Of a stretch of DNA of 62,475 nt, positions 1 to 58,000 are shown piece by piece. The notes under the pieces are model-generated. The model did not search any database, was not told where the DNA came from, and saw only the letters and a program-made list of their open reading frames with translations. The first letter of the stretch is position 1; each line of letters opens with the position of its first letter. Location: positions 1 to 62,475 of IMG/VR virus record IMGVR_UViG_3300023184_000124. One strand, given 5' to 3'. The position numbers and the translations under genes are program-made. Source of the stretch: a virus.

Positions 1-3000
1 CTGTGCCCGCAGTAGTTGCTGCACCAGTTAATGCACCTGTAAATGTTGTTGCACTTACGTTACCTGCACTGATATTACCTGTTACTGCTAAACTTGTTAA
101 TGTACCGGTACTTGTTATATTTGGTTGTGCCGCAGTTATTACTGTACCTGCTGTAGTTGCATTACCAGTTAATGCACCTGTAAATGTTGTTGCACTTACG
201 TTACCTGCACTGATATTACCTGTTACTGCTAAACTTGTTAATGTACCAACACTTGTAATATTACTTTGTGCTGCTGCAGTTACTGTATTAGCAGTGTCTG
301 CTGCTAAATTAGCAACTACTGTGGTAGAAGAAACTACAAACGGGGAAAGTCCTCCGTTTGCAACATTTGATATAAATCTACTAGCAGTTACATTACCTGC
401 ACCAATATTACCTGATACGGTTAAACTTGTTAATGTACCAGTACTTGTTATATTTGATTGTGCTGCTGTTGTTAATGTTCCTGTTAATAAAGTACTAGAA
501 ACATTTCCTGCACCAATATTTCCAGTTACTGTTAAGGCACCGGGAATTGCTACTGCACCTGTTGTTTTATTAAAAGTAAATCCTGTGTTTCCTTGGAAAA
601 CAGTAGTATCATTAAACTGTATAGCCTGATTAGAACCTCCCGGAGGACTTCCTGCCAACGATGTAAAAGATAATCCTCCGGATCCGTCTGTAACCAAATA
701 AGTAGATGATGTGCCACCTGTAATATGTAAGTTAGATACTGACCCCAGTGATACATTTCCTGTTCCAGTAAAATTAACAAGCCCGGATGCATTACTTACT
801 GCTAATCCAGTTAATGTTCCGGTACCTGGCACAGCAAATGCACCAGTTGTTTTATTAAATGTGAATCCTGAATTACCGTTTAATGCTAAATCATCATTGA
901 ATTGTATTTGTGTGTTACTCCCGCCAGCAACCGCACTATCTACTCCCCATGATAAATTGCCCAATCCGTCAGTTTTTAAATTATATCCTGCTGTGCCGCC
1001 TGATATATGTAAATTTGCCACTGCACCTAAAGTGACATTTGCTGATGTAGTGAAATTAACTATACCGGTTGCATTACTGATAGTTAGTCCAGTTAATGAA
1101 CCGACTGAAGTTATATTTGGTTGTGCATTAGTAGTTACGGTGCCTGCTGTGGTTGCTGCCCCTGATAATGCACCAACGAATGTAGTTGCAGTAATAGCAT
1201 TATTTGCTAAATTCATTGATATACCAGAACTTGTCAACTCAGTAATATTTCCTGTAGTTGCGTTAGCACCTATCACGTAGGCTGTACCGGTGCCAGGCGC
1301 AGTTACATTGATAAAATCTGCTACATTAGCATAGTCAACATTCAAGTTGGCTACCCGTGTAGTAGATGTTACTGTTAGTGGAGCAGTACCAATTGCTATG
1401 TTTGAGATAAAACGAGTGGCTGTTTCTGTTCCAGATGTGTTTATATTACCAAATGTACCATTACCGATTACAGATAAAGTAGTACCTATATTAGCATTAA
1501 AGGCTATATTAGCAAATCCAGCAGTGATTAAATTCCCACCGGTTATATTTCCTGTTGCAACAATCAATCCAGCAGTACCAAGATTACCAACATTAGCATT
1601 ACCGATTACAGATAAAGTAGTGCCTATATTAGCATTAGAGGCTATATTAGCAAATCCAGCAGTGATTAAATTACCACCGGTTATATTTCCTGTTGCAACA
1701 ATCAATCCAGCAGTGCCTAAGTTACCTACATTGGCATTGCCAACTACAGATAAAGTAGTGCCTATATTCGCATTAGCACCTACATTAGCAAATCCAGCAG
1801 TAATTAAATTACCACCGGTTATATTGCCAGTTGCAATGATAACACCAGTAGTGCCTAAGTTACCAACATTAGCATTACCGAGTACTGATAAAGTAGTACC
1901 TATATTCGCATTAGAGGCTATATTAGCAAATCCAGCAGTAATTAAATTACCACCGGTTATGTTTCCAGTAGCAACAATCAATCCAGCAGTACCAAGATTG
2001 CCGACATTAGCATTACCAATTACATTAGCAGTTCCGGGAATGTTAGCCCCGGTTGAAGTAACTACAAATTGTGCGGTTGCATTGCCGGCGGTAAATGTAG
2101 CGACATTGCCATTCGCAGTAAGAGTTATATTGCTATTACCATTTTGTAGTAACCCACTATTGATCGTAGTGATATTACCTGTAGTGATTATTGCTGTTGA
2201 TGTGCCTAAGTTACCAACATTAGCATTACCAATTACCGATAAAGTAGTGCCTATATTAGCGTTAGCACCAACATTAGCAAATCCGGCAGTGATTAAATTT
2301 CCACCGGTTATGTTACCTGTGGCAATAATCAATCCAGCAGTACCAAGATTACCAACATTAGCATTACCTAGTACCGATAAAGTAGTACCTATATTAGCGT
2401 TAACACCAACATTAGCAAATCCGGCAGTGATTAAATTTCCACCGGTTATGTTACCTGTAGCAATCATAACACCAGCAGTGCCTAAGTTACCTACATTAGC
2501 ATTACCAACTACAGATAAAGTGGTGCCTATATTCGCATTAGCACCAACATTAGCAAATCCGGCAGTAATTAAATTCCCACCGGTTATGTTTCCTGTTGCA
2601 ACAATTACCCCAGCAGTGGTTAAATTTCCGCCGGTTATATTACCTGTTGCAACAATCAATCCAGCAGTACCTAAGTTACCAACATTAGCATTACCGATTA
2701 CAGATAAAGTAGTACCTATATTAGCATTAGCACCAACATTAGCAAATCCAGCAGTGATTAAATTACCGCCGGTTATATTACCTGTTGCAACAATCAATCC
2801 AGCAGTGCCTAAGTTACCAACATTAGCATTACCAATTACCGATAAAGTAGTACCTATATTAGCATTAGCACCAACATTAGCAAATCCGGCAGTGATTAAA
2901 TTCCCACCGGTTATGTTTCCAGTAGCAACAATCAATCCAGCAGTGCCTAGATTACCTACATTAGCATTACCAATTACAGATAAAGTGGTGCCTATATTAG

Positions 3001-4555
3001 CATTAGCACCAACATTAGCAAACCCAGCAGTGATTAAATTCCCACCAGTTATGTTTCCAGTAGCAACAATTAATCCAGCAGTACCAAGATTACCAACATT
3101 AGCATTACCAACTACAGATAAAGTAGTACCTATATTCGCATTAGCACCAACATTAGCAAATCCGGCAGTAATTAAATTCCCGCCGGTTATATTACCTATT
3201 GCAATAATTTCTCCAGTAGTGCCTAAGTTACCAACATTAGCATTACCAATTACATTGGCAGTTCCGGGAATGTTGGCGCCAGTAGCGGTTACAGTCAATT
3301 GACTGGTTGCATTACCTGCAACAAAGTGAGAAATATTAGCACCAGATGCAATTGTAATATTACTTGTACCAAGTTGGATCAATCCACTATTGATAGTAGT
3401 GATATTACCGGTAGTGATTATTGCTGTTGAAGTGCCTAAGTTACCAACATTAGCATTACCTACTACTGATAAAGTAGTACCTATATTCGCATTAGCACCA
3501 ACATTAGCAAATCCAGCAGTGATTAAATTACCACCGGTTATGTTACCTGTGGCAACAATCAATCCAGCAGTACCAAGATTACCAACATTAGCATTACCAA
3601 CTACTGATAAAGTAGTACCTATATTCGCATTAGCACCAACATTAGCAAATCCAGCAGTGATTAAATTTCCGCCGGTTACGTTTCCAGTAGCAACAATTAA
3701 CCCAGCAGTGCCTAGGTTACCAACATTAGCATTACCAATTACCAATAAAGTAGTACCTATGTTAGCATTAGCACCAACATTAGCAAACCCAGCAGTGATT
3801 AAATTCCCACCAGTTATATTACCTGTGGCATTTAATGTACCAGCAACATTAACTCCAGTCCCTGTTACAACTAAAACAGTATTTCCAACTACAGTAGTAG
3901 AGATATTACCATTAGCAGTAAGAGTTATATTGCTATTACCATTTTTTAGTAAACCGCTATTGATAGTGGTGATATTACCAGTAGTGATTATAGCAGTTGC
4001 AGTGCCTAAGTTACCAACATTAGCATTGCCGGTTACCGATAAAGTAGTGCCTGCGCTAAGAGCATTAGTAGCAGATACATTAAATGCAGATACATTTCCG
4101 GTAATTACGATGTTTCCACCAAGAGTTATATTACCAGAAATACCTACATTTGCTAAATTTGAGTTACCAACTACGGATAAATTACCTTGAACATTTGCAT
4201 ATCCCGATAAGTTAATATTTGCCACATTTGCTATATTTGCCGGTAAATCAACATATAGAGTTTGCGATGATGCAGTAATTGAGGTATCTAGTGACCCGTT
4301 TGCATCACGCCCAATACTTAATGTACTAGTATGCACCTGAACGCAAGCAATATTTGCAGTAATGACAACATTTCCGGTAGGAGTACTTACGGTAATACCT
4401 GCACCCTGAGTTCTATTAACAGATATAACAGAGCCTACATCAGCACCTTCAAATAGTTCACCAAAATTATCCTGTACTTTTTGAAAGGCTGTTCTAATTG
4501 CGTCTGCGTCCGGATCATCCGGAAATGTACCAAAATCTATATTTCTTTGTGCCAT
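1..4555 (-). CDS. Repetitive tail-fibre/virion protein, C-terminus beyond the window
   Basis: The minus-strand frame starts with ATG at 4555 and stays open to the left edge, giving at least 1,518 codons. The protein starts MAQRNIDFGTFPDD. After about 110 residues it becomes a series of Gly/Asn/Val/Thr-rich repeats of 46 residues with cores such as ANVGNLGTAG and GGNLITAGFANVG. Such repeats fit an elongated beta-structured fibre. Towards the left edge they become more diverse but keep the GN(V/I)T pattern. A GATAAATA late-promoter motif lies 17 bp before the ATG and TAAGG serves as a ribosome site. Role as a fibre or adhesin is inferred from repeat architecture and late expression. No receptor-binding or peptidase domain is visible, and the C-terminus is missing. 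Confidence 0.8.
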   Translation of the reverse strand, partial: MAQRNIDFGTFPDDPDADAIRTAFQKVQDNFGELFEGADVGSVISVNRTQGAGITVSTPTGNVVITANIACVQVHTSTLSIGRDANGSLDTSITASSQTLYVDLPANIANVANINLSGYANVQGNLSVVGNSNLANVGISGNITLGGNIVITGNVSAFNVSATNALSAGTTLSVTGNANVGNLGTATAIITTGNITTINSGLLKNGNSNITLTANGNISTTVVGNTVLVVTGTGVNVAGTLNATGNITGGNLITAGFANVGANANIGTTLLVIGNANVGNLGTAGLIVATGNVTGGNLITAGFANVGANANIGTTLSVVGNANVGNLGTAGLIVATGNITGGNLITAGFANVGANANIGTTLSVVGNANVGNLGTSTAIITTGNITTINSGLIQLGTSNITIASGANISHFVAGNATSQLTVTATGANIPGTANVIGNANVGNLGTTGEIIAIGNITGGNLITAGFANVGANANIGTTLSVVGNANVGNLGTAGLIVATGNITGGNLITAGFANVGANANIGTTLSVIGNANVGNLGTAGLIVATGNITGGNLITAGFANVGANANIGTTLSVIGNANVGNLGTAGLIVATGNITGGNLITAGFANVGANANIGTTLSVIGNANVGNLGTAGLIVATGNITGGNLTTAGVIVATGNITGGNLITAGFANVGANANIGTTLSVVGNANVGNLGTAGVMIATGNITGGNLITAGFANVGVNANIGTTLSVLGNANVGNLGTAGLIIATGNITGGNLITAGFANVGANANIGTTLSVIGNANVGNLGTSTAIITTGNITTINSGLLQNGNSNITLTANGNVATFTAGNATAQFVVTSTGANIPGTANVIGNANVGNLGTAGLIVATGNITGGNLITAGFANIASNANIGTTLSVLGNANVGNLGTTGVIIATGNITGGNLITAGFANVGANANIGTTLSVVGNANVGNLGTAGLIVATGNITGGNLITAGFANIASNANIGTTLSVIGNANVGNLGTAGLIVATGNITGGNLITAGFANIAFNANIGTTLSVIGNGTFGNINTSGTETATRFISNIAIGTAPLTVTSTTRVANLNVDYANVADFINVTAPGTGTAYVIGANATTGNITELTSSGISMNLANNAITATTFVGALSGAATTAGTVTTNAQPNITSVGSLTGLTISNATGIVNFTTSANVTLGAVANLHISGGTAGYNLKTDGLGNLSWGVDSAVAGGSNTQIQFNDDLALNGNSGFTFNKTTGAFAVPGTGTLTGLAVSNASGLVNFTGTGNVSLGSVSNLHITGGTSSTYLVTDGSGGLSFTSLAGSPPGGSNQAIQFNDTTVFQGNTGFTFNKTTGAVAIPGALTVTGNIGAGNVSSTLLTGTLTTAAQSNITSTGTLTSLTVSGNIGAGNVTASRFISNVANGGLSPFVVSSTTVVANLAADTANTVTAAAQSNITSVGTLTSLAVTGNISAGNVSATTFTGALTGNATTAGTVITAAQPNITSTGTLTSLAVTGNISAGNVSATTFTGALTGAATTAGT
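1430..4060 (-). repeat. Coding tandem repeats, 138-bp unit
   Basis: Fifteen copies of a conserved sub-motif (encoding IGTTLSV and close variants) occur inside the fibre gene. Neighbouring copies at 1569, 1707, 1845 and 1983 are spaced exactly 138 bp (46 codons). The series is broken about 2030-2200, 3250-3430 and 3830-4020 by a different spacer type. Many units are almost identical at DNA level, so recombination could change copy number. Confidence 0.85.
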
Positions 4556-9969: not shown

Positions 9970-9976
9970 TATTTAG
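9970..9976 (-). promoter_or_regulatory. Late-promoter-like motif CTAAATA
   Basis: CTAAATA on the minus strand lies 18 bp before the ATG at 9951 and overlaps the stop codon of the upstream 886-residue gene. It would allow the 426-residue virion protein to be expressed separately. Confidence 0.5.
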
Positions 9977-12633
9977 TATTGAGATTCATTTGGTAAAATA
10001 GTTTTATGTGGAAATAATACATGAAAATTTTTACTATTTAATGGATCTGGTACCGGGGTAGCACTTGGCAATCCTGTCCAAGTAGGAGGATTAGTAGTTT
10101 TATCATAGTTATATGTGGTGCTTTTATCCACAGTAAATCTATCAATATTAAAATTAATTTGATTTAATTTATATGCCCAATTGTCATTTATATTATTTTT
10201 AATAGTAATTGCTTTACCTGGTTTGGTATAACAAATAACCCACGCTTGTGTATATCCTAATGTATTACCATTCGCTTGCTGACTGGTCATCCATAGAGGT
10301 AATAAAGAAGAATCATATTGTTGACCCAAAACTGCTGACACTCTGTTACGCATATTAATTAAACTATTTGGATATAACACTCTAGCCGAACCCGGAGTTA
10401 AACTAGTATAATATTCTTGACCAAATATATTTACATAACTAGTATATATATCATCTACACTAGTATACCAAGAACCCTGAAATAGATTAATAGGAGTTGG
10501 CCAATATATTTCACTGCTAACACTTACCCCGCTAGGATTTATTAAATTATCAATGATTTCACTATATACAACCTCATATATAATAGTACCAGCACTATTT
10601 TTAGCAACAGCAGTTTTTAATTCACCCAATGTTACATTTCTCCAATAATGATTTTGTGTAACTGCGGCAATATATTCATCTAAATCGCTAGAAAATACAC
10701 CATATAAATGCTCATATACAACACTAGTTGCTTTACCAAAATATATATCAGTTGCTCTATATAAATCTATAGTAGGAATCAAGGTAGTATTAGTTAACAA
10801 TGAATTTATTATATTTCTATCTGTAATACTAGGTGTAGCGTTAATATATAATATATCTGTTGGTTGATTATATTGTTGTAAAACAGATATAGTAAATGTT
10901 TTATTTGAATTTAATAATGGATGATCAGGAGAGTATGCTCGTATAGTAACAGTAAAATCAGTAGTTTCGTTTAGTATTAAAAATTGATTAGTAGGTTGAT
11001 CCGCAACATATCCGGTTATTTCTCCATTATATAATAATTCTAAATTAGGAGGAAGTGAACCTGACACAATGTCATAATATAGTTCTACTTGAGCAGTTGC
11101 TAATACATTTAATGTACTAATTGTTCCGTTATAAATTGTTCCCATATTAGCTGGAGTAATCCAAGTAACAATACCATCAAGCCCATTACTTATTTTATAT
11201 GAAAACTCAACATATTCACTTATAAACGATCCTTTTAATACAGCAACTGAAAAATTATATTGGTTAATTCCAGTTGACCCTAAAATTGGAGTACCAGTTA
11301 TCCAACCAGTTGTTGTATTCCCTATCATTCCACTTGGTAATCCTGAATAAGAATATGAAATTACAGAATTATCAAAGTCTTTTCCTATTATCTTAAATGC
11401 AAAATAATTATCACTTTGAGTAGTGCCAATAAAAGTTGAAGTAGCAGACGGGGTAGTTAATGTTCCACTTTCTTTGGGCGGTGTAAAATAATATCCATAA
11501 TATTCATTAGTTGGTAAAATATTAAATGTAGTGGGTCTTGTATTTAAAATAACCGGACTTCTTGAATTTGGTATTTTGCCCGGACCCCCTTGGCTTACTG
11601 GAGTATTTTGATTAATAACGGTAAGTTGATATTCAGCCACAGCAGTGCCTAATGCACTTTCTAATTTTAATGTAAAAGATGATGTTCTTATTGTTGGCTG
11701 ACCTACACTAGTAGCCGGTAAAGTAACTGTCATATACCCAGCAGCGTCTGTAACTAAGTAAGTTGGACCGTTTTGGATAGTAGACACCGTAAATTCAGTA
11801 CTATTAATTATACTTTTAACATAATATGTAGTAGTATTTAGTGAAGTAGCAGTTCCGGTACCGGACCCAACTCCTGTTGCAGTAAATAGTACGCCTATTG
11901 AATTAGCAGGTGCACCGATTAAAGTAAAGTCAGTTGGGGTATTACCAATCGTTGTAATTTCATAACTATTTCCTATTATAAAATAACCTGCAGATACTAC
12001 AGCTGTGGATGATATTGTCCCGAACGTAGTGCCTGAAAAAAGTACAATTCTACCCAAAGCAAATCCAGTTGTACTTAAACAAGTTATAATATTTGTTGAT
12101 GCAGTTGTGAGAGAAGCACTTGTTACTATTAACGGAAATGTTATATTAAGTATTGGTGGGTTTGGATATCCTCTAATAATACCTGATTCATTTATTTCTA
12201 GCCCAGACGGCAATAAGCCTTCTTTTAGGGATATAATTACAGTATTGTTAACATCAGGATTAGAATATTGAATTGGAATTTCAACCCAAATACTATCTTG
12301 TACACTTAATAAAGATCCAGTGGGAGTAGTAAACTTTGGAATTGCAGCGCCTAATACAACCATAGAAAATGTTCTATCTCTTAAATTATTTAAATTATCA
12401 GTAACACGTACAGTAAAAGTGCTAGTTGTTGCTAATGTAACTAAAGTGGGAGTGCCGGTTATTAATCCATCTTGATCTAATGATAAGCCTGGCGGTAGTA
12501 CTCCGCATAATAATGCATATGATATTGATGATGCAGGTGACTGTGCAGATGCTGATAATTGAAAAGTAGCCGGTAACAATGATGGAAATGTTCCCAGAGA
12601 TCCGGCGGGGGTGTTCCAAATAGGCTGTGCCAT
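9973..12633 (-). CDS. Virion protein with putative Ig (He_PIG-like) domains and shared tail modules (886 aa)
   Basis: The N-terminus has Ig-like repeats of the He_PIG type: LPPGLSLDQDGLITGTPT, then LLPSGLEINESGIIRGYP, later GLPSGMIGNTTTGWITGTP and SLPPNLELLYNGEITGY. Such folds are common in phage surface adhesins. Around residues 170-310 a YYI-type module is interrupted by a second module ending [10 protein letters not shown]. Both modules are repeated in the giant protein at 43045-62475. The C-terminal 300 residues are aromatic-rich and lack repeats. The gene is followed in the same direction by the 426-residue virion protein and preceded by an endolysin. A decoration or fibre role is inferred; the Ig fold is known to occur in such proteins. 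Confidence 0.75.
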   Translation of the reverse strand: MAQPIWNTPAGSLGTFPSLLPATFQLSASAQSPASSISYALLCGVLPPGLSLDQDGLITGTPTLVTLATTSTFTVRVTDNLNNLRDRTFSMVVLGAAIPKFTTPTGSLLSVQDSIWVEIPIQYSNPDVNNTVIISLKEGLLPSGLEINESGIIRGYPNPPILNITFPLIVTSASLTTASTNIITCLSTTGFALGRIVLFSGTTFGTISSTAVVSAGYFIIGNSYEITTIGNTPTDFTLIGAPANSIGVLFTATGVGSGTGTATSLNTTTYYVKSIINSTEFTVSTIQNGPTYLVTDAAGYMTVTLPATSVGQPTIRTSSFTLKLESALGTAVAEYQLTVINQNTPVSQGGPGKIPNSRSPVILNTRPTTFNILPTNEYYGYYFTPPKESGTLTTPSATSTFIGTTQSDNYFAFKIIGKDFDNSVISYSYSGLPSGMIGNTTTGWITGTPILGSTGINQYNFSVAVLKGSFISEYVEFSYKISNGLDGIVTWITPANMGTIYNGTISTLNVLATAQVELYYDIVSGSLPPNLELLYNGEITGYVADQPTNQFLILNETTDFTVTIRAYSPDHPLLNSNKTFTISVLQQYNQPTDILYINATPSITDRNIINSLLTNTTLIPTIDLYRATDIYFGKATSVVYEHLYGVFSSDLDEYIAAVTQNHYWRNVTLGELKTAVAKNSAGTIIYEVVYSEIIDNLINPSGVSVSSEIYWPTPINLFQGSWYTSVDDIYTSYVNIFGQEYYTSLTPGSARVLYPNSLINMRNRVSAVLGQQYDSSLLPLWMTSQQANGNTLGYTQAWVICYTKPGKAITIKNNINDNWAYKLNQINFNIDRFTVDKSTTYNYDKTTNPPTWTGLPSATPVPDPLNSKNFHVLFPHKTILPNESQY
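11852..11900 (-). repeat. 49-bp element identical to 51194-51242
   Basis: The minus strand here is identical over 49 bp to plus-strand positions 51194-51242 in the giant gene. Both encode the same part of a GSGTGTA-type module. The flanking module sequence is also very similar. Confidence 0.85.
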
Positions 12634-22600: not shown

Positions 22601-22881
22601 GCGGTACCCGTCTTAGTAACTAAAGTACCTATAGCGGTAGTTAACCCTTCTACTGCATAATTATATTTGGAAAAAGTGTGAAGAGAAGTGTTAGATTGAT
22701 CTAAAGCTCTATCAAACTCTTTCACAGTGACTTTAAGATCTTTAAAAAGATCAGTATCCCACCACCGTACGGTTGGAGAGCCAGTGCCCGGAGGGGCCCC
22801 TCCGGGATTGTTTCCGCGTCCCCGCATTTGTTCTTCCGTAAGCTCAATAAGTCTGTCTAGTTTACGGTCCGTTTCACTCAT
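19690..22881 (-). CDS. Tape-measure-like structural protein with internal duplication (1,063 aa)
   Basis: A long, mostly helical protein with an N-terminal coiled region, a central Ala/Gly-rich hydrophobic part (AVGAVGEALFGRVPVFGTAF), the segment VAQLHAGEKVLPKEEAKIY typical of tape-measure proteins, and a helical C-terminus. About 175 residues (SLEYSENLLRLSALTGK onward) occur twice and a third fragment (GSYDQTTAG) precedes the second copy. Between the duplicated part and the C-terminus lies an Ala/Pro/Val/Thr linker. It stands where I would not expect it in T4 (next to gp20), and divergent from gp26 and its frameshift partner. Tape measure is the best guess; another long virion protein is possible. 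CTAAATA at 22924-22930 is its late motif. Confidence 0.7.
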   Translation of the reverse strand: MSETDRKLDRLIELTEEQMRGRGNNPGGAPPGTGSPTVRWWDTDLFKDLKVTVKEFDRALDQSNTSLHTFSKYNYAVEGLTTAIGTLVTKTGTAGTVLSKSLNLLGKVATEVSQAIFKQTDELLQASDQFAKIGAAGSLTTKDIMKMGEQAGLTTKDLGILTNATGKIGTGLIGLGANATDGIKAFAGMTEVGKEVRQEFQRMGVSQTELIDQQAKYVEIQAASGKSMVSQGKDAATLKKSSLEYSENLLRLSALTGKSADVLQEEQKQQAMELEELIATRQEDDKINELKNSNRNEEAAALQKEQESRKAFIKDIDAKYGKAAAVALGKVARTGSYDQTTAGFANLGIDAGKLQSDLKNGVDGTKIANEMGEQLKSGMQSLLKNLGQGAQFNAQELFTSMGFTDFKELLGKVGTRIGINDQAQSDAAKKVFDDNKEGIGLAAKDFAQEARNYVKETENSLNLTKQGFIALANVFVEGPALVEKNFTDAKDKLLKFVKNLAPDSVIKAAERPSNIAPNVSNAAVAGTGTVTAAVGAVGEALFGRVPVFGTAFKILKKVGKLEVIASLIDMIGGDAIAAWLKGDTPSAPAASGAAPAATTGGPDTSATRSHGTTGETGKEVEPKDVVAQLHAGEKVLPKEEAKIYIAGSYDQTTAGSANLGINADTLKKASLEYSENLLRLSALTGKGADVLQEEQKQQAMELEELIAKRQEDDKISELRASGNKAEADSLQKEQDNRVAFLTDMSAKYGKVTGDSLGKVARTGSYDQTTEGYANLGIDAGKLKSDLKNGVDGKQLASEMSEQLSSLLKNLGKNTQFNAQELFTSMGFTDFKELLRKVGTAPVAAAPVAAAPAVVTTAPAVVTTAAAAPVAAAPAVVTTAPVAAASVAANPVVAASKLRGKSGDADQDTGPAVEAKSSNNKTNVGNFSIEDYIPNDRRMNDAETTYIQASLPTGTIDPNAGELGNQGPDYRMPLAPAEVEPVRPAISASETLSKVTLESVNPVVVEALKKITPSSAPVAAATASNNSEQMMFEVLSLFTDKCDEMIDKLEEANDIAARILRESR
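20195..20364 (-). repeat. Low-complexity Ala/Pro/Val/Thr-coding repeat
   Basis: Short direct repeats encode alternating PVAAA and PAVVTTA units. On the plus strand they appear as GGTGCTGCTGC and GTGGTTACTACAGCC blocks repeated several times. This is a likely flexible linker and a slippage-prone sequence. Confidence 0.85.
20365..20886 (-). repeat. Second copy of internal duplication
   Basis: This 522-bp segment matches 21637-22170 closely. Long blocks, such as the one coding QFNAQELFTSMGFTDFKELL, are essentially unchanged in DNA. A further fragment of the unit lies next to it at about 20887-20945. Confidence 0.9.
21637..22170 (-). repeat. First copy of internal duplication
   Basis: This 534-bp segment is the partner of 20365-20886 and comes first in the protein. 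The two copies are about 1.28 kb apart, in direct orientation and in frame. Confidence 0.9.
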
Positions 22882-24026: not shown

Positions 24027-24528
24027 TCCGTAATTATTCATTTATATAATTCTTTTTGTTATTAGAAGATGGGCTATAGCCCATCTAAGAACTTCGCTAT
24101 CGCTCGTTCTTATTTTTCACGGGTACTTACTTTTTTTAAGAGTACCATGTGTTATATATTGCTGCTTGGAGAGCCATGGTAGTGCTAATAAGCACCACCA
24201 TTGGATTTGGGATATTTGCTATGCCCATCGACCATTGTTATCTATTCCCCGTTTAATCAGCTATTTAGGCTATCAAACGCTACCGGTTGTTCTGTAAAGT
24301 TTACGGGACTGTAGTGAAGCTATCACGTTTATAATGATTCTTCCACAACGCACATTCTACTGAATCAAGATAAAATATCAGTAGACTTGTTTAGGGTTCG
24401 CTTTGACGAGAGCCCTATCGGTATTCCATAATTACATATGTAATTACGCTTACTCCAGAATCTGATGGCACAGCACAATCTGTACAACCTCAAGGAGGAT
24501 CGGGGAACCCCAATCACACAAATTTTTA
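24027..24528. other. Structured 500-bp region without genes
   Basis: No frame of 60 codons or more is present between two convergent genes. Many strong inverted repeats occur: a perfect 20-bp palindrome at 24067-24086, hairpins at 24087-24111, 24122-24146, 24176-24201 (two 5-bp helices around one mismatch), 24356-24385 (8-bp perfect stem) and about 24399-24422 (7 bp), and a perfect 18-bp palindrome at 24429-24446. Base composition is more balanced than the surroundings. This suggests a large structured RNA, on either strand, or the relic of an insertion. No tRNA, and no group I intron core that I could recognise. Confidence 0.5.
24087..24117 (+). terminator. Possible terminator behind gp26/frameshift gene
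   Basis: AAGAAC and GTTCTT (24087-24092, 24106-24111) form a 6-bp stem followed by ATTTTT, 60 bp past the stop at 24026. The stem is weak, but the 20-bp palindrome directly before it could add to termination. Confidence 0.4.
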
Positions 24529-43044: not shown

Positions 43045-46000
43045 ATGGCCACAAGAATTAGAACACTAAATTTTCTTCCGGAAATATTTAAAACTCCTAC
43101 CAATTCTCAATTTTTAAAAGCCACGCTTGATCAAATAGTAGCGCAACCAAATACTAAAAAAATACAAGGGTATGTTGGTGGTGATTTTGGTCCTGGAATT
43201 AATCCAAATGATTATTATGTTGTTGAACCTACAAAAACTCGCACCGACTATCAATTAGACCCGGGTGTGGTTTTTACTAAAGCAAATGATGCCACTGCAA
43301 AAGATTTTATTAGTTACCCAGGCATTATTGATGCTCTTAAGGTAGAGGGCGGATTAACTAATAATAATAATAGATTATTTAATAGTGAGTTCTATTCATG
43401 GGATTCCTTTACTAATTTAGATAAAATAATTAATTTTAATCAATACTATTGGTTACCAAATGGACCTAATCCAGTATTAATATCAAATGCAACAGTTTAT
43501 GCTGCTGCCGAGTATACTGTAACTACTAGTAGTACAACTGCTGGGTATAGTATTTCTACAATTCAAGGACAACTTGGTACAACTAATCCATCACTAACTT
43601 TATTACGAGGAGGTACATATACTTTTGCAGTCAATCAAACTAGTAACTTTTGGATACAAGGTGCGCCCGGCGTTACTGGATATAGTCTTACTCAACCCAA
43701 TGTACAAACTAGAGATGTTTTGGGGGTAACTAATAATGGGGCTGAAACAGGATTAATTACATTTACTGTCCCTAATAAAAATGCACAAAATGAATATAAT
43801 TTTTTAGGTAATAATTTAGTTGATGTTGTTAGTACAATCCCGTTTGAACAAGTTAACGGAGCATTACTATCAGATTTGGTAGCAATAGACGGAATAACTT
43901 CGCTTGAAGGGTTAACGGTAATGTTTTATAATACCGGTATACCTGACGAAATTGGATATGTGTCTAACTTTTTTGATTATACAAATTTTGACCAAAATAC
44001 TAATTTAGTGGCTGCATTAACTATATCAGTAACCAATACAACCACCGGTACCAATTTAATAACATGTAATTCTACTGCAGGACTAACACTAAATGATACT
44101 ATAACATTTACTGGAAATATACCATTTGGTGGATTAATACAATATTCTGCAACGATCCCCAATACAATTTACTATATAAAAACAATTAATAGCTCAACAA
44201 CATTTACTATTTCGCAAACATTAGGCGGTGTGGTTTTTCCTTTAACAACGGCCACCGGAACGTTAATTGGTAATATTAATGAGGGGTTGCTAGAAGAAGG
44301 ATATTATACAACAGTCAATGATAATTTTTATACTATCACATATATTGGGTCATCAAGTGATCCAATTATTAGACTTATCCCTGCAGGACAAATACCCACT
44401 AATGAAAAAATAACTGCGGTATACGGAACTGAATGGATAACTAGAAATTTTTATAAAAATATATACGGATATATAAGTGTATATCCTTATCTAAGCGCAA
44501 TATTAGATAAATTATATTATCAAGACGGCACTTCACAAAATAAAGTGGGAGTAATTAACCTTATTGATAGTAATAACACTTACTCGTTAAATGTTGACGT
44601 TGACATATTAGGTAAACAAAATTTTACTTCTACCGGAGGTGTTGTATTTACCAATGGACTTAAAGTAATATTTCGCGGAGATGTATTTCCAAGTTCGTAT
44701 AGAACAGGACAATATTATGTAGAAGGCGTGGGCACTGCAATTGAATTATTAAAGGTGCAAGATTTAATATCTCCTGAAGCATTTACTTCAGGATCATATA
44801 TTCCATATGATAGTACTGCATATGATATTGGAAATTTTGATTCAGAATTGTATATTCCACTAACACCAGATTATATAACAATTGCTAGAAATTCTATTAA
44901 TAAAAATGCCTGGTCAAGAAGTAATAGATGGTTTCATATTGATGTAATCAATGCAACTGCTACTTATAATAATGACCCTGCGTCAATAACAATATCTGCC
45001 ACACAAGAATATAAGGCTAAACGTCCTATTATAGAATTTTATCCAAATATTAATTTATTTAATTCTGGCACTATAGGTAAGAGTCCTATAGATTTTATAG
45101 ATGATAGAACTACTGACGCTTTCTCATTGGTTGCGGGAAAAGAAAACTATTACCCAGATGTAACTAGTTATTCTACTTATAATACTACACTTAATGGAGT
45201 ATCTAGTGATTTGTCCGGTACCAGAACAGCAAGCAATACAACGGTTAACACTAACTTAATCACATTAAGTTTAGGCAATACTGTTGGATTTCAAATAAAT
45301 GATAAAGTTGTTTTTACTGGTTATCCAAATTTTGGTAATATTTTATCCGGTATAACTTATTATATTTCAACGTTAGTATCTACTCCGTCAGCCTTCATCG
45401 GTTTTATCTCAACGAATACACTTACTGTTAATTCTATTAGTGCAGGAAGTTTAAAACTAGGAACTTATATTTCTGGAGTTGGCATAACCGCAGGAACTTA
45501 TATTACGGCATTTGGATCAGGCTCCGGCGGTACAGGAACCTATACAATTAATAGTACGTTAGTAATTACAACGTCTGAGATGGTTGGAAATACGTATGAA
45601 TCATTTACTATATCTGAAGATCAAAACGGAGATACATTAATATTGTCTACCGCTAGCGGAACATTTGATGTTGTTGTAACTCCGTTGTCTACTACTGCAA
45701 CAGTGCTGACAACTGACATAACCGGCTCAATTGCAGTTGGGCAATATATTACAGATTCTACACAGTTATTGCCTAAAAATAGTATTATTACTGCTATTAG
45801 CGGGACAACTACGCTAACAATAACAATGACATGGAATCAACCAACAATATTTGCATCAACTACGGTTGCTTCAATTATAACAACAGATTTACAAGTAGAT
45901 AACTATGCGTTATTTCCCGGAGCAAGAGTTGTTTTTACAGCAGACACAAATGATAATATAAAAAATAAAATTTATGTATCACAATTTTCACTTGTAGCAG

Positions 46001-49000
46001 GATCAACTACTCCTGTTATAACGTTAACCGAAGCAGAAGATGGATTGGTACTGCCCGGTGAGCAAACCGTTGCCTTCAGAGGATATAACTATCAAGGTAT
46101 GGATTTTTACTTTGACGGAACTAGTTGGATAGAATGTCAACAAAAAATAACAGTAAATCAACCTCCATTATTTGATGTTTATGATAATAATGGAATAAGT
46201 TTTGGAAACACAGAGATATACTCAAGTAGTTCATTTGCAGGATCTAAATTATTTGCATACGGAATAGGTTACGGGATTGATGATATTATATTAAGTTTTC
46301 CACTTAGATATAGTTCAGTAGCCAATGTTGGTGATATAAGTTTTGATGTTTCATTAAATAAAGATACCTTTAATTATGTATCGGGAACTACTCCTATAAC
46401 TCAAAAAATTAATACAGGATATGTTGAAAATACCATTTCGTTTGGCTTAACTAAACGTAATTTAGGGTGGCAAACCGCAATTGCCCCTAGTATTCAATAT
46501 CAACAGTTTCAATTTAATTGGGCGCCGGTAGTAGGGACATTGCCAGTTTTTACGTGTGATATAGCAGTAGTTGATTCTGTTGAAGGTAACTGGCCTGTTA
46601 TTAAAGTGTATGTAGATAATATTTTTCAGGCTGCAGATTCTTACACATATACCACTACTACAACTTCTACTATTATAACTTTAAATTCAACTATTATACA
46701 AAGTATAGTAGAGATATTAATATTAAGTGACCAAGTAAGCACTACAGCATATTATAGTATTCCACTAAATTTAAATAATAATCCATTAAACCAAGATTTA
46801 ACAACGGTAAATGTAGGAGATATTCGTACTCAATATCGTAGCATATATCAAAACAATCCTAATATTATCGGGGAAGTTTTTGGGCCTAATAATTATAGAG
46901 ATTTAGGAAATCTAGTTCCGTACGGTAATGCAATCGTACAAAATAGTGCTGCATTAGTATTGCCTGGCGTGTTTTTAAGAAAACAAAATTATAATTTATT
47001 TAATTCGTTAATGTTTAACAGCAGAAGTTACATTACATTTAAAACTCAATTAATAGATACTGTTAATAATACTGCATTTAATGCCTTACCAGAGCCAGCA
47101 GCATTATTAGATAATGCGTTAGATATATTAACTGCTTCTAAAATAGATAGCGAGCCATTCTTTTGGAGCGACATGATTCCTTCCAAATCAGCATACATTA
47201 GTAATACATATTTATTTGCAAATTCATTAGATATTAGTGTATATCAATTAAGTAGGGTATATAATTTTAGTACAGCAAATTATAATGGTGTATTAGTATA
47301 TTTGACTAGAACTACCAATAACACAACAAAAATTACTCAATTAATTAAAGGAGTAGATTATTCTATAAGTGCAGATTCACCATATGTAACCGTTACCTTA
47401 GATTTAATAGCCAATGACATAATAACAATTAATGAATATAATCAAACTTACGGAAGTTATATACCAAACACCCCTACTAAGTTAGGATTATATCCAGCAA
47501 CTATTCCAGGCGTAATACTAGATAGTGCGTACCAAAATCCAACATATTTTATTGTTGGTCACGACGGGTCTTACAATAAATTATATGGTGCATATAATTC
47601 TACAACCAGTACATTAGTTGATTTTAGAGATCAGGTATTATTAGAATATGAAACTCGTGTATATAATAATTTAAAAGTAAGTGCAATTATTCCAATTAAA
47701 GAATATGAAGTATTACCGGGATTTTTTAGAGAAACTGATTATACCAATGATGATATATTACAAATATACTCTGAAACATTTTTAAATTGGGTAGGGCAAA
47801 ATAGAATTAATTATAAAAGACAAATTTATAATACCTATAATCAATCTACTTATAACTATTTTCAAAGTGGAAATAAGATAAACAAAGCTGTAATACAGCA
47901 AGGATATTGGAGAGGAATATTTCAATATTTTTATGACACAACCACGCCGGATAAAACGCCATGGGAAATGTTAGGATATACTAATCAACCTACGTGGTGG
48001 GCTACTAAATATGGTGCAGCACCATATACTAGTGATAACTTCGTATTGTGGAATGATTTAGCAGAAGGAATTGACTGGAATGACGGTAACCCTATTGTAA
48101 TTGCCGCAGCAGTAAGACCTGAATTATTACAAATATTACCGGTCAATAGTGCAGGTGAATTATTATCTGCATTTGATGCTATCGTGGGTAATTACAACAA
48201 TAATTTATTTCAACGTGATTGGAAAGTAGGTGATGATAGTCCAGCCGAACTTAGTTATCGTAGAAGTAGTTCATGGCCATTTGATTTGATGCGTATATTA
48301 GCATTAACTAAACCTGCAGAATTCTTTAATTTGGGAGTTGATTTAGACAATTACAAATTCAATACTGAATTTGGACAATATTTAGTAAATGATAGAAGTC
48401 ATTTGGTTGTAAGTAATATAGAAATATATGGATCAGGTACTGCTAAAACCAGTTATATTAATTGGATTGTAGATTATGCTAAACAAACAGGAGTAGATGC
48501 CACCCAAGATCTATTAGATGTATTAAGAGATTTGGATGTTAGGTTAGTATACCGATTAGCCGGGTTCAGTGATAAAGATTTATTAAAATTTTATGTAGAA
48601 AAGGGCACACCTAATAACACTAATGCTTCTTTATTAATACCTGATGAGAGTTATTCAGTATTGTTGTATGATAATCAACCGTTTGCTAAAGTAATATATA
48701 CCGGCGTTATTATTCAAATAACAACGAACGGATATGCAGTTTATGGTAATTCACAAACACAAGCGTTCTTTAAAACATTTAAACCAATTAATAATGGCAT
48801 TTATGATAATATAGAAGTAGAAACTCTTACTGTTAGGGTTGCTAGTAAATATTCTCCTGTTGAAATTATTATACCGTATGGTACTGAATTTTATACAGTT
48901 CAAGACGTAGCACAATTTTTAATAAGTTATAGCAAATATTTGGAAAGTGAAGGATTAGTTTTTGCTGAAATTGAAAATGGAATAGAAATAAACTGGAGAC

Positions 49001-52000
49001 AAATGACCGAAGAGTTTATGTATTGGGTTCAGTTGGGTTGGGAAGTAGGAAGTATAGTTAATGTAAATCCGGCGGCTACCTATTTAGTTATTTCTCGTGA
49101 CAGTTCAATTGTACAACCTTTAACTTTCCATCAACAAAATTTTGTATTAAATCAAAATTTATATCCAATTCAATCTAGAGATTTGAGCATAGTTCGTGAA
49201 GATACGACCTTTAGCATAAAGACATTAAATGCAGGCGACACTATATCCTACGGACAATTTAATATATATAATTTTGAACATGGCATTGTGTTTGATAATA
49301 TTACGTTATTTAATGATACTATCTATAATTTAATAACTGGGCTACGTCAAGTAAGAATAATATTAAATGGTACTAAAACTGCTGAGTGGAACGGCACGAT
49401 TGATGCTCAAGGATTTATTCTTAATCAAGATAATATACTTGAGTGGAATAAAGAAGTAAAATACACAACCGGTTCTATTATAAAATATAAAAATAGATAT
49501 TGGATAGCAATAAAAATCAGTCAAGCAAAAGAAATATTTGATGAACAAGACTGGAAACTAACAGATTATAACGAAATACAAAAGGGATTATTGCCTAACT
49601 CAAGCACACGTTCATATGAAAGTACCTTATATTACAACTCTAATTATGCTAACTTAGAACAAGATTCTGATTTATTAAGTTTTTCTTTAATAGGGTATCG
49701 TCCTAGAGATTACTTATCCGTTGCGGATTTATCTGATATAACTCAGATTAATGTTTATCAAAATTTAATTAAAGAAAAGGGAACACTAAATGCAGTAAGT
49801 GCCTTTAAGGGTGCAACATTATTGCAAGGCGGAATTAAATATGATGTTTATGAAAATTGGGCTATAAAATCAGGTGAATTTGGCGGAGTACTAAATGATA
49901 ATTTTGTTCAATTTAAATTAAATCAAACTTACTTAACAGGTAATCCCTCTATAGTAGGTCTTACTAATGGTATAGCAAATGAAGGAGTTCAGCAAGAAAT
50001 TCCTATATATTCATTATTTAATTATGGCAGAGTTATTAATGATGTTAATATATTACCTACTATAAATGCAGGCACACAATCAACTGTATTCCCTGACGCC
50101 GGATATGTAAATTATAATGATATTAAAATGTCATCATATTTCTATTTTAATTTACCTCAGGCTGCTAATCAATATGGTAAAGTAATTCCGTTATCTAATT
50201 TTTATGTAAGAGATTATACTTGGCTGGCTAATTATTTAGGCACATGGCAGGTATTTACCCCTGCTTCATTGGGTCAGGTTATATATGCTAAAAATAATTT
50301 AAATGGAACTGTTACAATAACATTTAACCAAACTCATAATTTAGAACAATATCAACCGCTAGCAATAGTTAATTTCAATGATGGTATCAATGGATATTAT
50401 ATCGTAAGTTTAGTAGTAGATCCCAATCGTGTTATTATTAATTTAACATTAAATCCAAGTATTCTTACAGTTACTGGATTTGGAATTGGATTTAAATTTC
50501 AATCACAACGAGTGGCCACCCCGTCTGAAATAATTAATTTACCTTTATTAGACGCTGAATTTATTAAAAATAAAGTGTGGGTAGATACTAATGAAGACGG
50601 TAACTGGGCTGTATTACGAAAAAATATTAATTATCAATATGAATCTGAAATTCTAAAAGCAACAAGTAATACGTTTGGTAGTGCTGTGGCATATACTGCT
50701 GATATTGGTTATTTAATAGGCGATGCCACAGCCGGCAAAGTATATAGATATGTATATAATGAAGTAGATTTTATATATGAAATAGTACAAACTATTACTA
50801 ATGCTTCTTCATTTGGTACAACTATAGTGCATGTTGGAGATCTTATAGTAATATCAGAGCCAACTACTCCTAAGGTCTATATATATCAATTACAACATAC
50901 TGCTGTAATTAATTCTATTACCCCGTATCAAAATACAATAGCATTACCCGGAGATGCTATTGCAATATCAGGCGATCAAAATTGGATATATATTTCTGAT
51001 ACCTTAAATAATAGTGTATCTGCTTATCGTAAATCTCAAAATACAGGAAAATATGAAATTTCATATGTTATAGATGGTAATTCACTTGGATTAACTTCAG
51101 TAACAACTGCCGGTAGTTTTACAATAGGAAATAGTTATGAAATTAAAACGGTTGGTTCAACTGACTTTACTTTAATTGGTGCAGCATCTAATACAATAGG
51201 CGTACTATTTACTGCAACAGGAGTTGGGTCCGGTACCGGAACCGCGTATGCCGGAGATAATTTTGGATATTCTGTTGCAACTGATTACTATGGAGATACT
51301 ATTGTTATAGGTACCCCAAACAAAGATTATAGTGCAACAGTTGATAATTGGGGATATACATACATATTTGATAGAGTAATGCAAAATATAGAAGTGCAAT
51401 ATACTTCTGCATCCCCATCGATACAAACTTATCAATTAGCATGGACTCCTGTCATCCTTACGACAAATATTATTTCTACTACGGCTACTGACACGATTAC
51501 TTGCGCTAGTACAACTGGATTTACTGTACTTACTCCAGCAATGTTTTCTAATACAATGATAGTTGATAGCGGAATATCTGCTGACATAGTGTATTATATT
51601 CGGTCAGTGCCTACCGGTAGCACATTTACTATTGCTGAAAACAAATATATTACTAGCGTTGCGTCTACTATTGCTACCGATAATTTAATTGTAGTTGATA
51701 GTACAACTAATTTTGTTGTAAACAGTCCAATTATTTTTGAAGGTAATGCTGATGTAACTAATATAGTATCCGGTACAACATACTTTATTAAAACAATAAC
51801 TACTGCAGGATTAGCACCGGCTATAACTATATCTGCAACATCAGGTGGCGGAACATTTACTATTGCATCATCAACTAATTCACTATCGTTAACAGCAGTT
51901 ACACTAAGTAGCCCGGTAACAATAAGTACAAAAACTAGAGCAACCATTACTGCCGGGAATTTTTTAATAGGTAGAACCTATCAAATTATAACAGTTGGGT

Positions 52001-55000
52001 CAACTAACTTTATGTTAATTGGTGCAGCATCTAACACAGTCGGCGTAATATTCACAGCAACTAAAGTTGGTTCTGGCAACGGCACTGCATATGCAGTTAT
52101 GACAATTAATGTTCAAACTGAACCTTTATTTATTAAAGTAAACGGCACTTTAATTACTGACAAAAATTATGCAGTTGTGGGAAATAATTTAATAGTTAAT
52201 CAAACTATTAGAGCTGGCGATTTGGTTAATATAAGTGGGCCGTTATTTACGCTAGTACAAACACTTACTACTGAAACTACTCCTAATGTGGGAGTACATT
52301 TTGGACAAAGCGTTGCTGTTAACACATATGCATCAGAACTATTAATTGGTGCTCCATTTGAGTTGAGTACACAGCGAGATGAAGAGGGAGCAGTATTTAG
52401 ATTTACAAACGGTGGTAGTAACTATGGCGTAATTATAGGAACATCAACTTGTACAGTTACTACCGCACGTAATATTTTATTAAATGGATATTTAATTCCG
52501 ATTGTGGCAGGTAATGCGATAGCAGTTGCTAACACAATTAACAATGCTAACGTAACTAATATTCAAGCATCTGCGGTTAATGGCATGCTTATTATTCAGT
52601 TAATAAATGTTGATTTAGCAACAGCAAACGATAAATTAATATTATCTGTTGTTGATTCCGCTACGTTAAGTGAATTAGGAATTAATTTATACACACAAAC
52701 TCAATTTATTAAATGTCCGCATTTATACGGTCCAACTCAATTTGGAAATGTAGTAAAAGTTAACGCTGCTGGGTCTTTTGTTGCAAGTGCGCCGACTGGC
52801 ACCCGATATTTAGCAACTACTTTTGATTTTACTGATGATGAATTCTTAGATAATGACACATTGTTTGATAATAATACTACGCAGTGGGTAGACCCGTTTT
52901 ATAATGCCGGTGCAGTATACATGTTTGATTATTTACCGGTGTACAATGCAAGTTTGCTTAATCCGGGCAAATATATCTATGCTCAAAGTACTAATGCATT
53001 AAATCAAAGTTACGGTGACCAACCCATGTACGGTCACGCTATTGATTTTACAAACGAATCTTTAATTATAGGCACACCAAACTTTAGAGTGGGATATGAT
53101 AACGGTCAAGTTATTACATATTTAAATACTAGTGGGGTACCTGATTGGAGCACATATAGACAATCAGCACCGGTTGTTGACATAAGCAAAATAGCAAATA
53201 TACAATTGTTTAGTGCTGAAACAAATGAAACATTAGACAATTTAGATTATATTGATCCACTTCAAGGAAAAATATTAGGTGCGGCAAGACAAAATATTGA
53301 TATAATTTCTAATAATGATCCTGCAGGATATAACTCTACAACAGCCCCTCGTGCATTAGTATGGGGGACAGGTAAGGTTGGCCAAATTTGGCTTAACACT
53401 AGTAATATGCGATATGTAAATTATCATCAAGATGATATTTCTTATAATAGTCAATATTGGGGTACATTATTTCCAGGCAGTCAAGTGGCAGTATATACTT
53501 GGGTGTTAAGTAATGTCATCCCTGATTTATATTTAGGCCCAGGCACGCCTTTTGATAACACTAAATATGCTACAAACTATACATTAAATGCTACGGGACT
53601 TGTAGTCCCTGTGTATTATTTCTGGGCAAGCAACACTAATATAGTATCTACCGCAATAGGAAAAACGTTAGCAGACTCTACTATTGCCGGATATATTAAT
53701 TTTCCAAAGAATTCTGGGATAAGTTATTTTGCCCCACTATTACCAAATGTGTTTGGATTGTATAATGCTACGCAATCTATAAATGCAAATGATACTGTAT
53801 TAAATATAGGATATTCAACTGGAACAAATGATGATCCTGGACACAACCAATACGCATTAGTACGTGCTAATTATGCCGATGATTTTTTACCAGGCTTCCC
53901 TAAATTAAACACCACAGATTTACCTACTAATTTATATGATAAGTTACTAGATAGTATGTGCGGAGTGGATGAATCGGGGCAAATTGTTCCTAATCCGTTT
54001 TTACCAAAAGCAGTACAAACTGGTATATTAGTACGACCATCGCAAAGTTTCTTTTTTAATAGATTTGGTGCATTAAAAAATTATTTAATGTATGCTAATA
54101 CTGTGTTAGCACAATTTCCAATTACAGAAATTAGAAGAAGTTTATTTTTAACTGCAACCGGACCATTTTATAATACCTCTGATTATTGGATTTATATTAA
54201 TTGGTGGGCTCCAGGCTATAGTGATGCTACAAAATCTGCAACAACCGTTAATATATATGCTGATTTGGCAGCGTTAGAGGTGGTAGCCGGCACTATTGCT
54301 ACAGTAAAACTAAACGGGAACGGTAATTCAGAAACATATATATTAACTTCTTTGGGTAGTTGGACACGCATAGGACTTAATAATGGAACGATTGAATTTA
54401 GTAGCACATTGTGGGATTATTCAATAGATCGATTTGGATTTGGTGATAATTTTTATGACACCACTGACTTTGATTTATACCCATCTGAAGAAACTAGATT
54501 TATTGTTAGAGCATTAAATGAACAACTTTATACAAATGAATTATTAATATTTCGTAATAAAAGTTTGATATTGTTATTTGAATATATTCAAAGTGAGACC
54601 ATTGAATCTCAAAATTATATTCCATGGTTAAATAAAACTTCATTAATTGATGTATCACACACGATACGAGAGTTGGTGCCTATTGATGAATATAAGGCAG
54701 ATAATCAAGAATTTTTAGCAGGTTATATAAATGAAGTAAAACCATACCATGTTGTAATTAAAGAATTTATATTTAAATACACCGGGGTTGATGTATATGA
54801 AGGTGATATAACAGATTTTGATTTACCAGCTGAATATGACATTGAACAAGAACATTATATTAGCCCGCAATTAGTATATGGTTACCCCGGCACTATATAT
54901 CAGTATTCTTATACAGACCCTATATGGACTACTTCTTCATATAATCAATGGTTTACTAACATGGGTGTAAGCATTACCGGAGTATTAGATTATCAAATTA

Positions 55001-58000
55001 CAACCTTAACAAGTTATATATCATTAAATTCTGTTGCATTTTCAGTTGCAAATGCATTTGGATTGCCTACTACCGGTGTATTATTACTGGGTGATGAAAA
55101 AATAGAATATTCAACCGTTGATAGAAATTTAAGTGTGGTCGCAGGACTAACTAGAGGCATAGGTGGCACTACAGTATCTACACATATACCTGGCGAATTA
55201 ATTTATATAGATTTGCCAGCAGTATTATTACTTGACAGCGGAAGATCCTATACTGAACCCCCTAAAGTTATTGCATATATTGACACTACAATTTATCCAG
55301 AGCCAATGGTTTTAGCAGAGTTGGTTGCAGTTATGAATTTAGATAAAGTACTGTCAATTACGGTTGTTAATCCAGGCAAAGGGTATGCAGTATTGCCAAC
55401 TATTATTATAGATTCAGCAGTAATTATCCCGTTTGAAAGTAGTGCAGTTAGTCTTGTTGGCAATACAATTGATGTGTATGCTCCTTTATTAGAAACAGGA
55501 GATCTTATTCAATATAAGGTGTCGGTAGGAAATACTGCAATTGGAGGATTAGTAAACAATCAATGGTACTATGTGAATGTGCTAGAAACTGTGCCAACTG
55601 TTATTGTCGCATTGTATTCTAATTATGGAGATGCTATTAATGGTAATATATATAACAGAATACCCTTTTACAGTGTAGGTTCTGCTACTGGCGGCTCATT
55701 AAATCTAGGGGCAAGAGCATCTTGTGTTTCAACTGCATCTCCAATTCGTCAAAATAATATTACACTTAAGTTTGACCGCACTACCTATAATTCACAAGTT
55801 ACTGATTGGGAAAGTAATGCATTTTATGCATCTCCGTTTGCTGGACTATATTATAATAGTCAAACAGTATCAAGCTCATCTATTACATTAGAAAATACAC
55901 AGCCCAATATTCAATCAATTTTAGCAAGCGGACAGGGAATATCTTTTGAAATAGTTAATGTAACTAATGATCAAATTATTACGTGGTCATCATTTGCTAG
56001 AATTGTTGAAAGAACAATAGCGGCAACTGATATAATAAGATTAACTTTATTAGACAATGGCGCAGGCAATAGTAATGCATCAGGCTCTACTCTTGGCTTC
56101 TATGTAAGTATGCCGATTAAATTTGTAGGGGCAATGATAGGAGGATTGGTAGACGGTACAACATATTATGTACATTCTATTATAAATGATACTGATTTTA
56201 AAATTTCTACCATAGCCGGCGGTGAATTTACTGGTTCAATTTCAACCACTACACTTACTGTAACTACTGTTATTTCCGGTACAATAACCGTGGGAACTGT
56301 TATAACTGGGTTAGGAATAACAATAGGAACAACAATTACTGCATTAGGTACGGGCACTGGCGGTATAGGAACATATACAATTAATAATAGTCAAACTGTT
56401 AGTTCAATTCAAATTAATGGGACCCCTCCGGTATTTGATTTATCCGGATATATAATTCCTGTGGGTGCAGCACCATTAAATTGCTATACTGCTGACGCAA
56501 GTAATACCGCAATATTAACGGTAACGTATCCTGGCATTTCTACAGTTACAGCAACTACTGCAACAACTAATACATTGACTATTCCGTTAAATTTAACAGG
56601 TAGTGGCGGAACTCAGGGTTTCTATATAAATTTACCAATATATTTTACAGGAACAATGATTGGTGGTATAGATGATAATCAAACTTACTATGTAACCACT
56701 GTAGTTGACAGTCAAAGATTTACAATGTCGTTAAATCAAAACCCATTAACTTTGCCTATAACCGGAGCAAATGCAAGTACAGATAAAATTACGTGCGTAA
56801 CCACAGAGTTGTTATCAGATATATTAACAGTTAATCAACCTATCATATTTAATTCAATGATTATATCTGCTGGGTCTTTTGTAATAGGACAAGAATATAC
56901 TATTGTAACAGTTGGAACAACTAATTGGGACACCGTGGCAGGTATTACTAAAACATATATAGTAGGTGATATCTTTATATGTGCTAATTCTGGAGCAATA
57001 TCTGCCGGTAATTATATATTAGGAGAAACTTATATAATTGTTACATTGGGAACAACAGACTTTACTCTAATTGGAGCAGCATCTTCTGCTGTGGTCACTG
57101 GATCAATATCAGGCACAACGCTTAATATTGCCGGTGTTACTTCAGGCATATTAACAATAGGCACATATATTACAGGGACCGGCGTAACGGCAGGAACATA
57201 TATTACTGCATTTGGAACTGGAGTTGGATATTCAGGAACATATACAATTAATAATAGTCAAACAGTGTCCCCGGCAATTACAATTACCGGGCAACCTCTA
57301 GAGGGAACTTCATTTATTGCATCTGGATTAGGTTCGGGTACTGGAACTGCAGGTGCAACCGGTACAGTCGCCGGCACATCTTTTGGCGGTATCATATCGG
57401 GTACAACATATTATATAAGCACGATACAAAATATATCATCTACAATTACTATATCATCTCAGCCTAATAGTGGTGATTTTAATATTACATCTAATGTAAC
57501 CGGTTCTGCATTATTAACTAGTCAAACTGATACTGTTGCACTTACTACTGATGTTGGTAATATGACAATTAATATTTCGTTACCTGTGAGTCCGGGTCAA
57601 GTTAATGGACAACTATTTACTTTGTATGATACATCACAGCAATTTCCAAATATTAGTTCCGGATTAACCGGAGAATTAATACAACGAACTGTTTCTGATA
57701 CTATACCTGCTTCAGTAACTGCAGGCGATTTTATTATAGGGCAAAGTTATACCATTGTTACTGTTGGCACTACTAACTTTGTGTCTATTGGTGCTTCAGC
57801 AAGTACAATTGGAGTGATCTTTACTGCAACTGGTGCCGGATCTGGTACAGGAACTGCTAATTTACCAAATACCGCAGTTGCAGCCGGGTCGTTTGTAATA
57901 GGGCAAACATATGAAATTGCGTACATAGGAAATACAAACTTTATAGTAATAGGTGCTACAGCGCAAACAATTGGATTAGTATTTACTGCTACTGGCATTG

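Follow-up and report, generated by a model that had tools for sequence, protein, structure and literature searches.

The window analysed here, the whole 62,475 nucleotides of IMG/VR record IMGVR_UViG_3300023184_000124, is a fragment of a T4-like phage of freshwater type. Its minus-strand block carries the clamp loader, endolysin, major head protein and portal genes, together with g2, the first of the two genes that concern us. Its plus-strand block encodes baseplate wedge proteins and then the second, a giant virion-protein gene that is still open where the window ends (Table 1). In G001, a relative 98% identical to the window, the frame at the giant gene is open over 7347 codons (G001 5567-27610).

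The giant gene, some 22 kb long, consists mostly of three repeated modules, here called A, B (13 hits) and C, some of which are nested in one another. At 56992-57297, for example, module C interrupts a module A that itself lies inside a split B, giving three levels of nesting. Module A is present in four clear copies, A1 to A4, and several diverged ones. Elsewhere in the window, an open-ended protein of 1518 residues encoded on the minus strand at 2-4555 carries near-identical 46-residue tandem repeats (GNITGGNLITAGFANVGANANIGTTLSVVGNANVGNLGTAGLIVAT), and perfect short palindromes that adjoin genes at 22787-22806 (CCCGGAGGGGCCCCTCCG) and 24067-24086 (AGATGGGCTATAGCCCAT) are probably terminators.

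Table 1. Positions in the window of the exact repeat, the two genes that carry it and their modules.
Feature	Position	Strand	Remarks
g2	9973..12633	-	886-aa He_PIG (Ig-like) protein; adjoins endolysin and major head protein genes
Module B, right part in g2	11701..11835	-
Insertion in g2	11836..12006	-	171 bp, 57 codons, in frame; module A plus short linkers
Module A core in g2	11848..11997	-
49-bp exact repeat, copy in g2	11852..11900	-	Exact-repeat search
Module B, left part in g2	12007..12102	-	Split by A
Giant virion-protein ORF	43045..62475	+	6477 aa; open at window end
A1, module A copy 1	51106..51246	+	Giant gene; adjoins FG-GAP-like stretch
49-bp exact repeat, copy in giant gene	51194..51242	+	Exact-repeat search
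A2, module A copy 2	51946..52089	+	Giant gene
Diverged or partial A copies	56860..57093	+	Giant gene; second copy broken by repeated module C
A3, module A copy 3	57715..57858	+	Giant gene
A4, module A copy 4	57877..58020	+	Contains third 17-bp core (58000-58016); 22 bp in common with g2
Three diverged A-like copies	58324..59025	+	Giant gene; one variant type

The exact repeat and module A

A preliminary description of this DNA, made from the sequence alone, had drawn attention to 49 bp in the giant gene that are identical to the reverse complement of a stretch of g2, and to a 17-base core that recurs further along the giant gene. Both were confirmed. The exact match cannot be extended beyond 49 bp, and the 17-mer GGGTCCGGTACCGGAAC is found at 51226(+), 58000(+) and 11852(-), although between g2 and the third copy the exact match extends to 22 bp and not just 17 (11849-11870 and 57998-58019). 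The strong similarity that had been reported outside the 49 bp is also real, amounting to 119 nt at 83% plus 57 nt at 84% identity in one comparison and to 145 nt at 87% in another. The next-longest exact inverted repeats in the window, of 23, 22 and 19 bp, all belong to the same pair of modules or to the third copy, and outside the module A family no exact inverted repeat in the window is longer than 18 bp. The 49-bp repeat is the 3' end of module A, a protein module of about 48 residues (about 144 bp), and its two copies have opposite orientations because their host genes sit in divergent gene blocks.

Among 34 varied copies of module A, 14 positions are invariant, and the stretch GVxFTATGxGSGTGTA is among the best-conserved parts of the module across all phages. 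Searches of Pfam, PHROGs, NCBIfam and the PDB gave no relevant match, the Pfam matches of the 34 copies include no Ig families, and comparison of the structure by Foldseek or VIA gave no match in the PDB. An AlphaFold2 model of the module (47 residues) is compact, with a pLDDT of 90, and has short strands only and one short helix, falling short of an Ig beta-sandwich. The same fold is present in predicted proteins of uncultured phages, and module A is predicted from its model to fold on its own, independent of the host protein. We found no published description of the module or of its peptide motif in the open literature, a scope that leaves out most subscription papers.

In-frame insertion of module A in g2

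The g2 genes of two relatives, L006 and L007, are 97.6% and 97.0% identical to that of the window and do not have the 171-bp insertion; both relatives are 97-98% identical to the window, and collinear with it, over 10-12 kb around the site. Module A is absent from the site in all 64 other relatives that cover it (0/64), and the window is the only one of 65 g2 proteins to carry it there. This is the one near-identical pair of filled and empty sites, the other comparisons being with more distant relatives, in which the absence of A may represent loss.

The insertion interrupts a module B, a unit of 77 residues. When the flanks are joined without A, module B is restored, with a score of 84.6 bits compared with 31 and 48 bits for the separate pieces, and the same nesting of A in B, with B again restored on removal, is found in L108, L127 and L148 (twice in the last). 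L006 and L007 also differ from one another just left of the insertion site, where a cluster of changes and a gap of 3 bp lie no more than 30 bp from it, implying that this loop of g2 is variable even when it lacks A.

The junctions in g2 have no direct flank repeats of 3 bp or more, showing a 2-bp ambiguity only, and neither a terminal inverted repeat nor a target-site duplication is present at them. This argues against module A being a DNA mobile element, like a MITE or a Rickettsia palindromic element, that lies in frame by chance, for all that its size of about 150 bp, its in-frame entry into many unrelated genes and its several copies per genome would suit such an element. RNA structure is ordinary in 10 copies (z -1.4 to +1.75), the copies of different phages are linked by protein-level conservation only, and the identified hosts are no random set of genes but all encode virion or surface proteins. 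The palindrome TCCGGTACCGGA, considered as a DNA site, was rejected as a by-product of Gly-Ser/Thr codons that is private to this genome, the codons at this place varying freely among phages. We thus regard a mobile element as quite unlikely.

The closest copy to the one in g2 is A1; the two differ at 22 of 153 positions, and the g2 copy has two extra codons. These differences bear on the possibility that one copy was misjoined from the other during assembly, which the preliminary description had named as the finding that would overturn its reading. The record is derived from a metagenome, and short repeats can mislead assembly, but a chimera should not carry so many differences, nor the two-codon insertion, and the g2 copy stands in frame in a gene that is otherwise 97-98% identical to two independent contigs. 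An artefact of this kind is very improbable. A diversity-generating retroelement, with an adenine-biased TR/VR pair, was likewise rejected, 8 of the 22 differences falling on A1 adenines (47 of the 153 positions).

A copy as recent as the empty site suggests should not, however, have accumulated 22 differences, unless it passed through another lineage or changed fast. The first 100 bp or so to the right of A are 91% identical to L006 and L007, compared with 97-98% overall (Fisher P 0.0025), so that the piece containing A may have entered as a patch from another lineage. It is possible, at somewhat less than even odds, that homologous recombination with a related phage, one that had acquired A earlier, brought in the entire B-A-B stretch of g2, A itself being static in the present lineage. 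The lowered identity of the flank and the similarly high divergence between A1 and the g2 copy both favour such a swap, against which stands the absence of any g2 orthologue carrying A among 80 relatives; an exact search of IMG/VR with the 5' half of the g2 copy, made to trace its donor, also gave no match. A swap of this sort is compatible, as a last step, with the explanation that we prefer below.

DNA exchange between copies on opposite strands

Synonymous positions had been described as identical in the two copies, and recent DNA exchange, not protein-level selection, had been proposed as the cause. The identity holds for the 49 bp but not for the whole module, in which five same-residue codons differ. 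Over the module, 35 of the 40 same-residue codons of A1 and g2 are identical, compared with 17.6 expected, and in 20,000 simulations that kept both protein sequences and drew codons from the phage's own usage none reached a 49-nt identical run or 35 identical codons. The value of pS between A1 and g2 is 0.185, whereas in other phages pairs of copies from unrelated genes have a median of 0.695, and with 22 differences an identical run of 49 bp is too long to be expected by chance (P about 0.002, whether or not sites are weighted by their variability). The two copies thus share their ancestry as DNA. Convergence or selection at the protein level could draw on the high conservation of the GVxFTATGxGSGTGTA stretch in all phages, but silent positions are identical far above the expectation from codon usage, and in other phages the same residues are encoded by different codons; the codon simulation rules out protein-level selection as the cause of the 49-bp tract, and as a sufficient explanation for the likeness of the two copies we give it almost no credence. 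For this single pair dN/dS is 0.66, high beside the cross-phage ratio and hinting at relaxed or changing selection.

The claim of recent exchange therefore stands for A1 and g2, and it gains from comparison with G001. The core GGGTCCGGTACCGGAAC is common to A1, A4 and g2 in the window, whereas G001 has GGATCTGGTACCGGAAC in its A1 and GGGTCTGGCACAGGAAC in its A4; these orthologues lack the shared core and are unlike each other, so that conversion after the split from G001 is the most likely source of the identity between the three copies in the window. As far as sequence comparison can, G001 shows this conversion to have taken place between copies on opposite strands. Over the giant gene, the A copies have diverged from those of G001 by 5.4%, compared with 2.2% elsewhere (circular-shift P 0.009), and the divergence of the module B copies is not raised. 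The most diverged 162-bp stretch of the giant gene relative to G001 is at A3 (57706-57867, 24 of 162 positions, many of the changes silent), which looks as if it had been replaced. The part of the exchange claim that needs revision concerns what moved: the unit is a discrete module of 48 residues, and the larger event is the 171-bp insertion, which had escaped the preliminary description.

That description had also envisaged that the inverted repeats might flip or exchange tail genes. The two copies are indeed inverted, and their 49 bp come close to a length that phage recombination can use, but neither an inversion of the intervening 39 kb nor a swap of tail genes finds support in the relatives. 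Through the g2 site (about 17.6 to 5.0 kb) L006 and L007 are collinear with the window, as is G001 through the site in the giant gene (42.5 to 62.5 kb); the comparison comprises three relatives, each through one copy, and the window, L006, L007 and G001 are all fragments. The genes at both sites keep their expected neighbours, and we consider rearrangement through the repeats to be very unlikely.

We conclude that the repeat is best explained by a promiscuous mini-domain that was inserted in frame, with later gene conversion between its copies, and put the probability of this at roughly 0.78. On this view g2 gained a copy related to A1, in frame and within a loop of its module B, once its lineage had separated from the relatives of 97-98% identity that have the empty site. 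Codon identity shows, at sequence level, that the source was related to A1, and the transfer was probably in the direction of g2. Insertion was probably through recombination between short similar stretches, or else a patch of about 300 bp may have come from a related phage that already had A in g2, as the 91% flank suggests. Copies in the same genome would then swap short tracts by gene conversion, producing the silent identities of 49 bp and 17-22 bp, and A would persist by folding independently and by being tolerated or useful on exposed loops. By analogy with Ig-like domains, its function is most likely that of a surface or adhesion add-on. A stronger proposal, that A, B and C are protein-level mobile units, coding cassettes moved in frame between phage and bacterial surface-protein genes by dedicated or strongly biased recombination and not by ordinary illegitimate recombination, seems to us unlikely.

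Spread of module A among virion and surface proteins

A scan of IMG/VR for module A gave at least 522 confirmed relatives, and in the loci that were read the module occurs in at least 24 non-homologous contexts. Its phage hosts include P22-type coat proteins, SU10-type major capsid proteins, the gp15 tail-sheath stabiliser, pectate-lyase tailspikes and other head and tail virion proteins, with a tail-tube-like protein as a weak match. Of 81 gp15 relatives, 12 carry A, at a loop where the rest are without it, the copy in L209 being distinct; the structure prediction for gp15 has a pLDDT of 43. In the P22-type coat protein group A is present in 1 of 55, and one relative of the SU10-type major capsid protein lacks it. 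Three INPHARED phage records contain the module when the low-complexity filter is on, and plasmids gave no match. In cellular genomes A is rare; besides PilY1 from Burkholderiales MAGs, its hosts there are a multicopper-oxidase protein and an fn3/GEVED protein. Three such MAGs (L167, L168 and L171) have two to four copies of A in PilY1, an adhesin of the type IV pilus tip. Three orthologues from the same family are without A at the one site checked, and 3 of 200 genomes of the family of these carriers have any copy of A. PilY1 is located on pili, and pili are receptors for many phages. All identified hosts of module A are virion or surface proteins.

Several known systems resemble module A in part. 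Phage Ig-like domains are described as small and autonomous, and are found on capsids, tail tubes and fibres (Fraser et al. 2006, cited in PMC13370021; PMC8718954). As summarised in these sources, they are scattered over unrelated virion proteins, sporadic among relatives and thought to stick to surfaces; module A too is found in unrelated virion proteins and is sporadic among their relatives. It is, however, about half their size, without an Ig match in Pfam or the PDB, and is inserted both within loops and between domains, and in its case an empty site and silent-site exchange have been caught. Rickettsia palindromic elements, according to the accounts available, are about 150 bp long and lie in frame in many unrelated protein genes (Ogata et al. 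2000; PMC10969869). Module A matches them in length and in style of insertion, entering unrelated genes in frame with empty sites in relatives, but those elements are palindromic and are described from metabolic genes, whereas in A neither a palindrome nor an RNA fold is conserved, and A is a conserved protein domain found in virion and surface proteins. A 25-residue tandem repeat module is likewise protein-coding and sporadic, and thought to be spread by horizontal transfer and within-genome shuffling, but it has dyad symmetry and occurs in membrane-associated proteins, whereas A is an insertable mini-domain of 48 residues without such symmetry. Finally, domain mosaicism in phage proteins is seen as an ongoing shuffling of fragments between them (Smug et al. 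2023, PMC10684548); the stress of that survey, in the part of it available to us, is on receptor-binding proteins, endolysins and polymerases, whereas module A is a single tiny module, present even in major capsid proteins and resolved at the DNA level. Module A thus behaves most like the phage Ig-like domains and inserts like the Rickettsia palindromic elements, yet lacks defining features of both; its best reading is as a promiscuous surface mini-domain that is spread by insertion and gene conversion.

Mosaicism of phage virions is well known, but one rarely observes the step at which a domain comes to lie within an unrelated protein. In the present case an insertion of 57 codons can be set beside near-identical empty sites, and silent positions bear traces of exchange between copies of opposite orientation. 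The module concerned is in none of the profile and solved-structure libraries that were searched, yet its hosts include major capsid, sheath-stabiliser and tail proteins as well as PilY1 adhesins. It offers a tractable system in which to ask how domains spread, and whether such add-ons alter virion surfaces.
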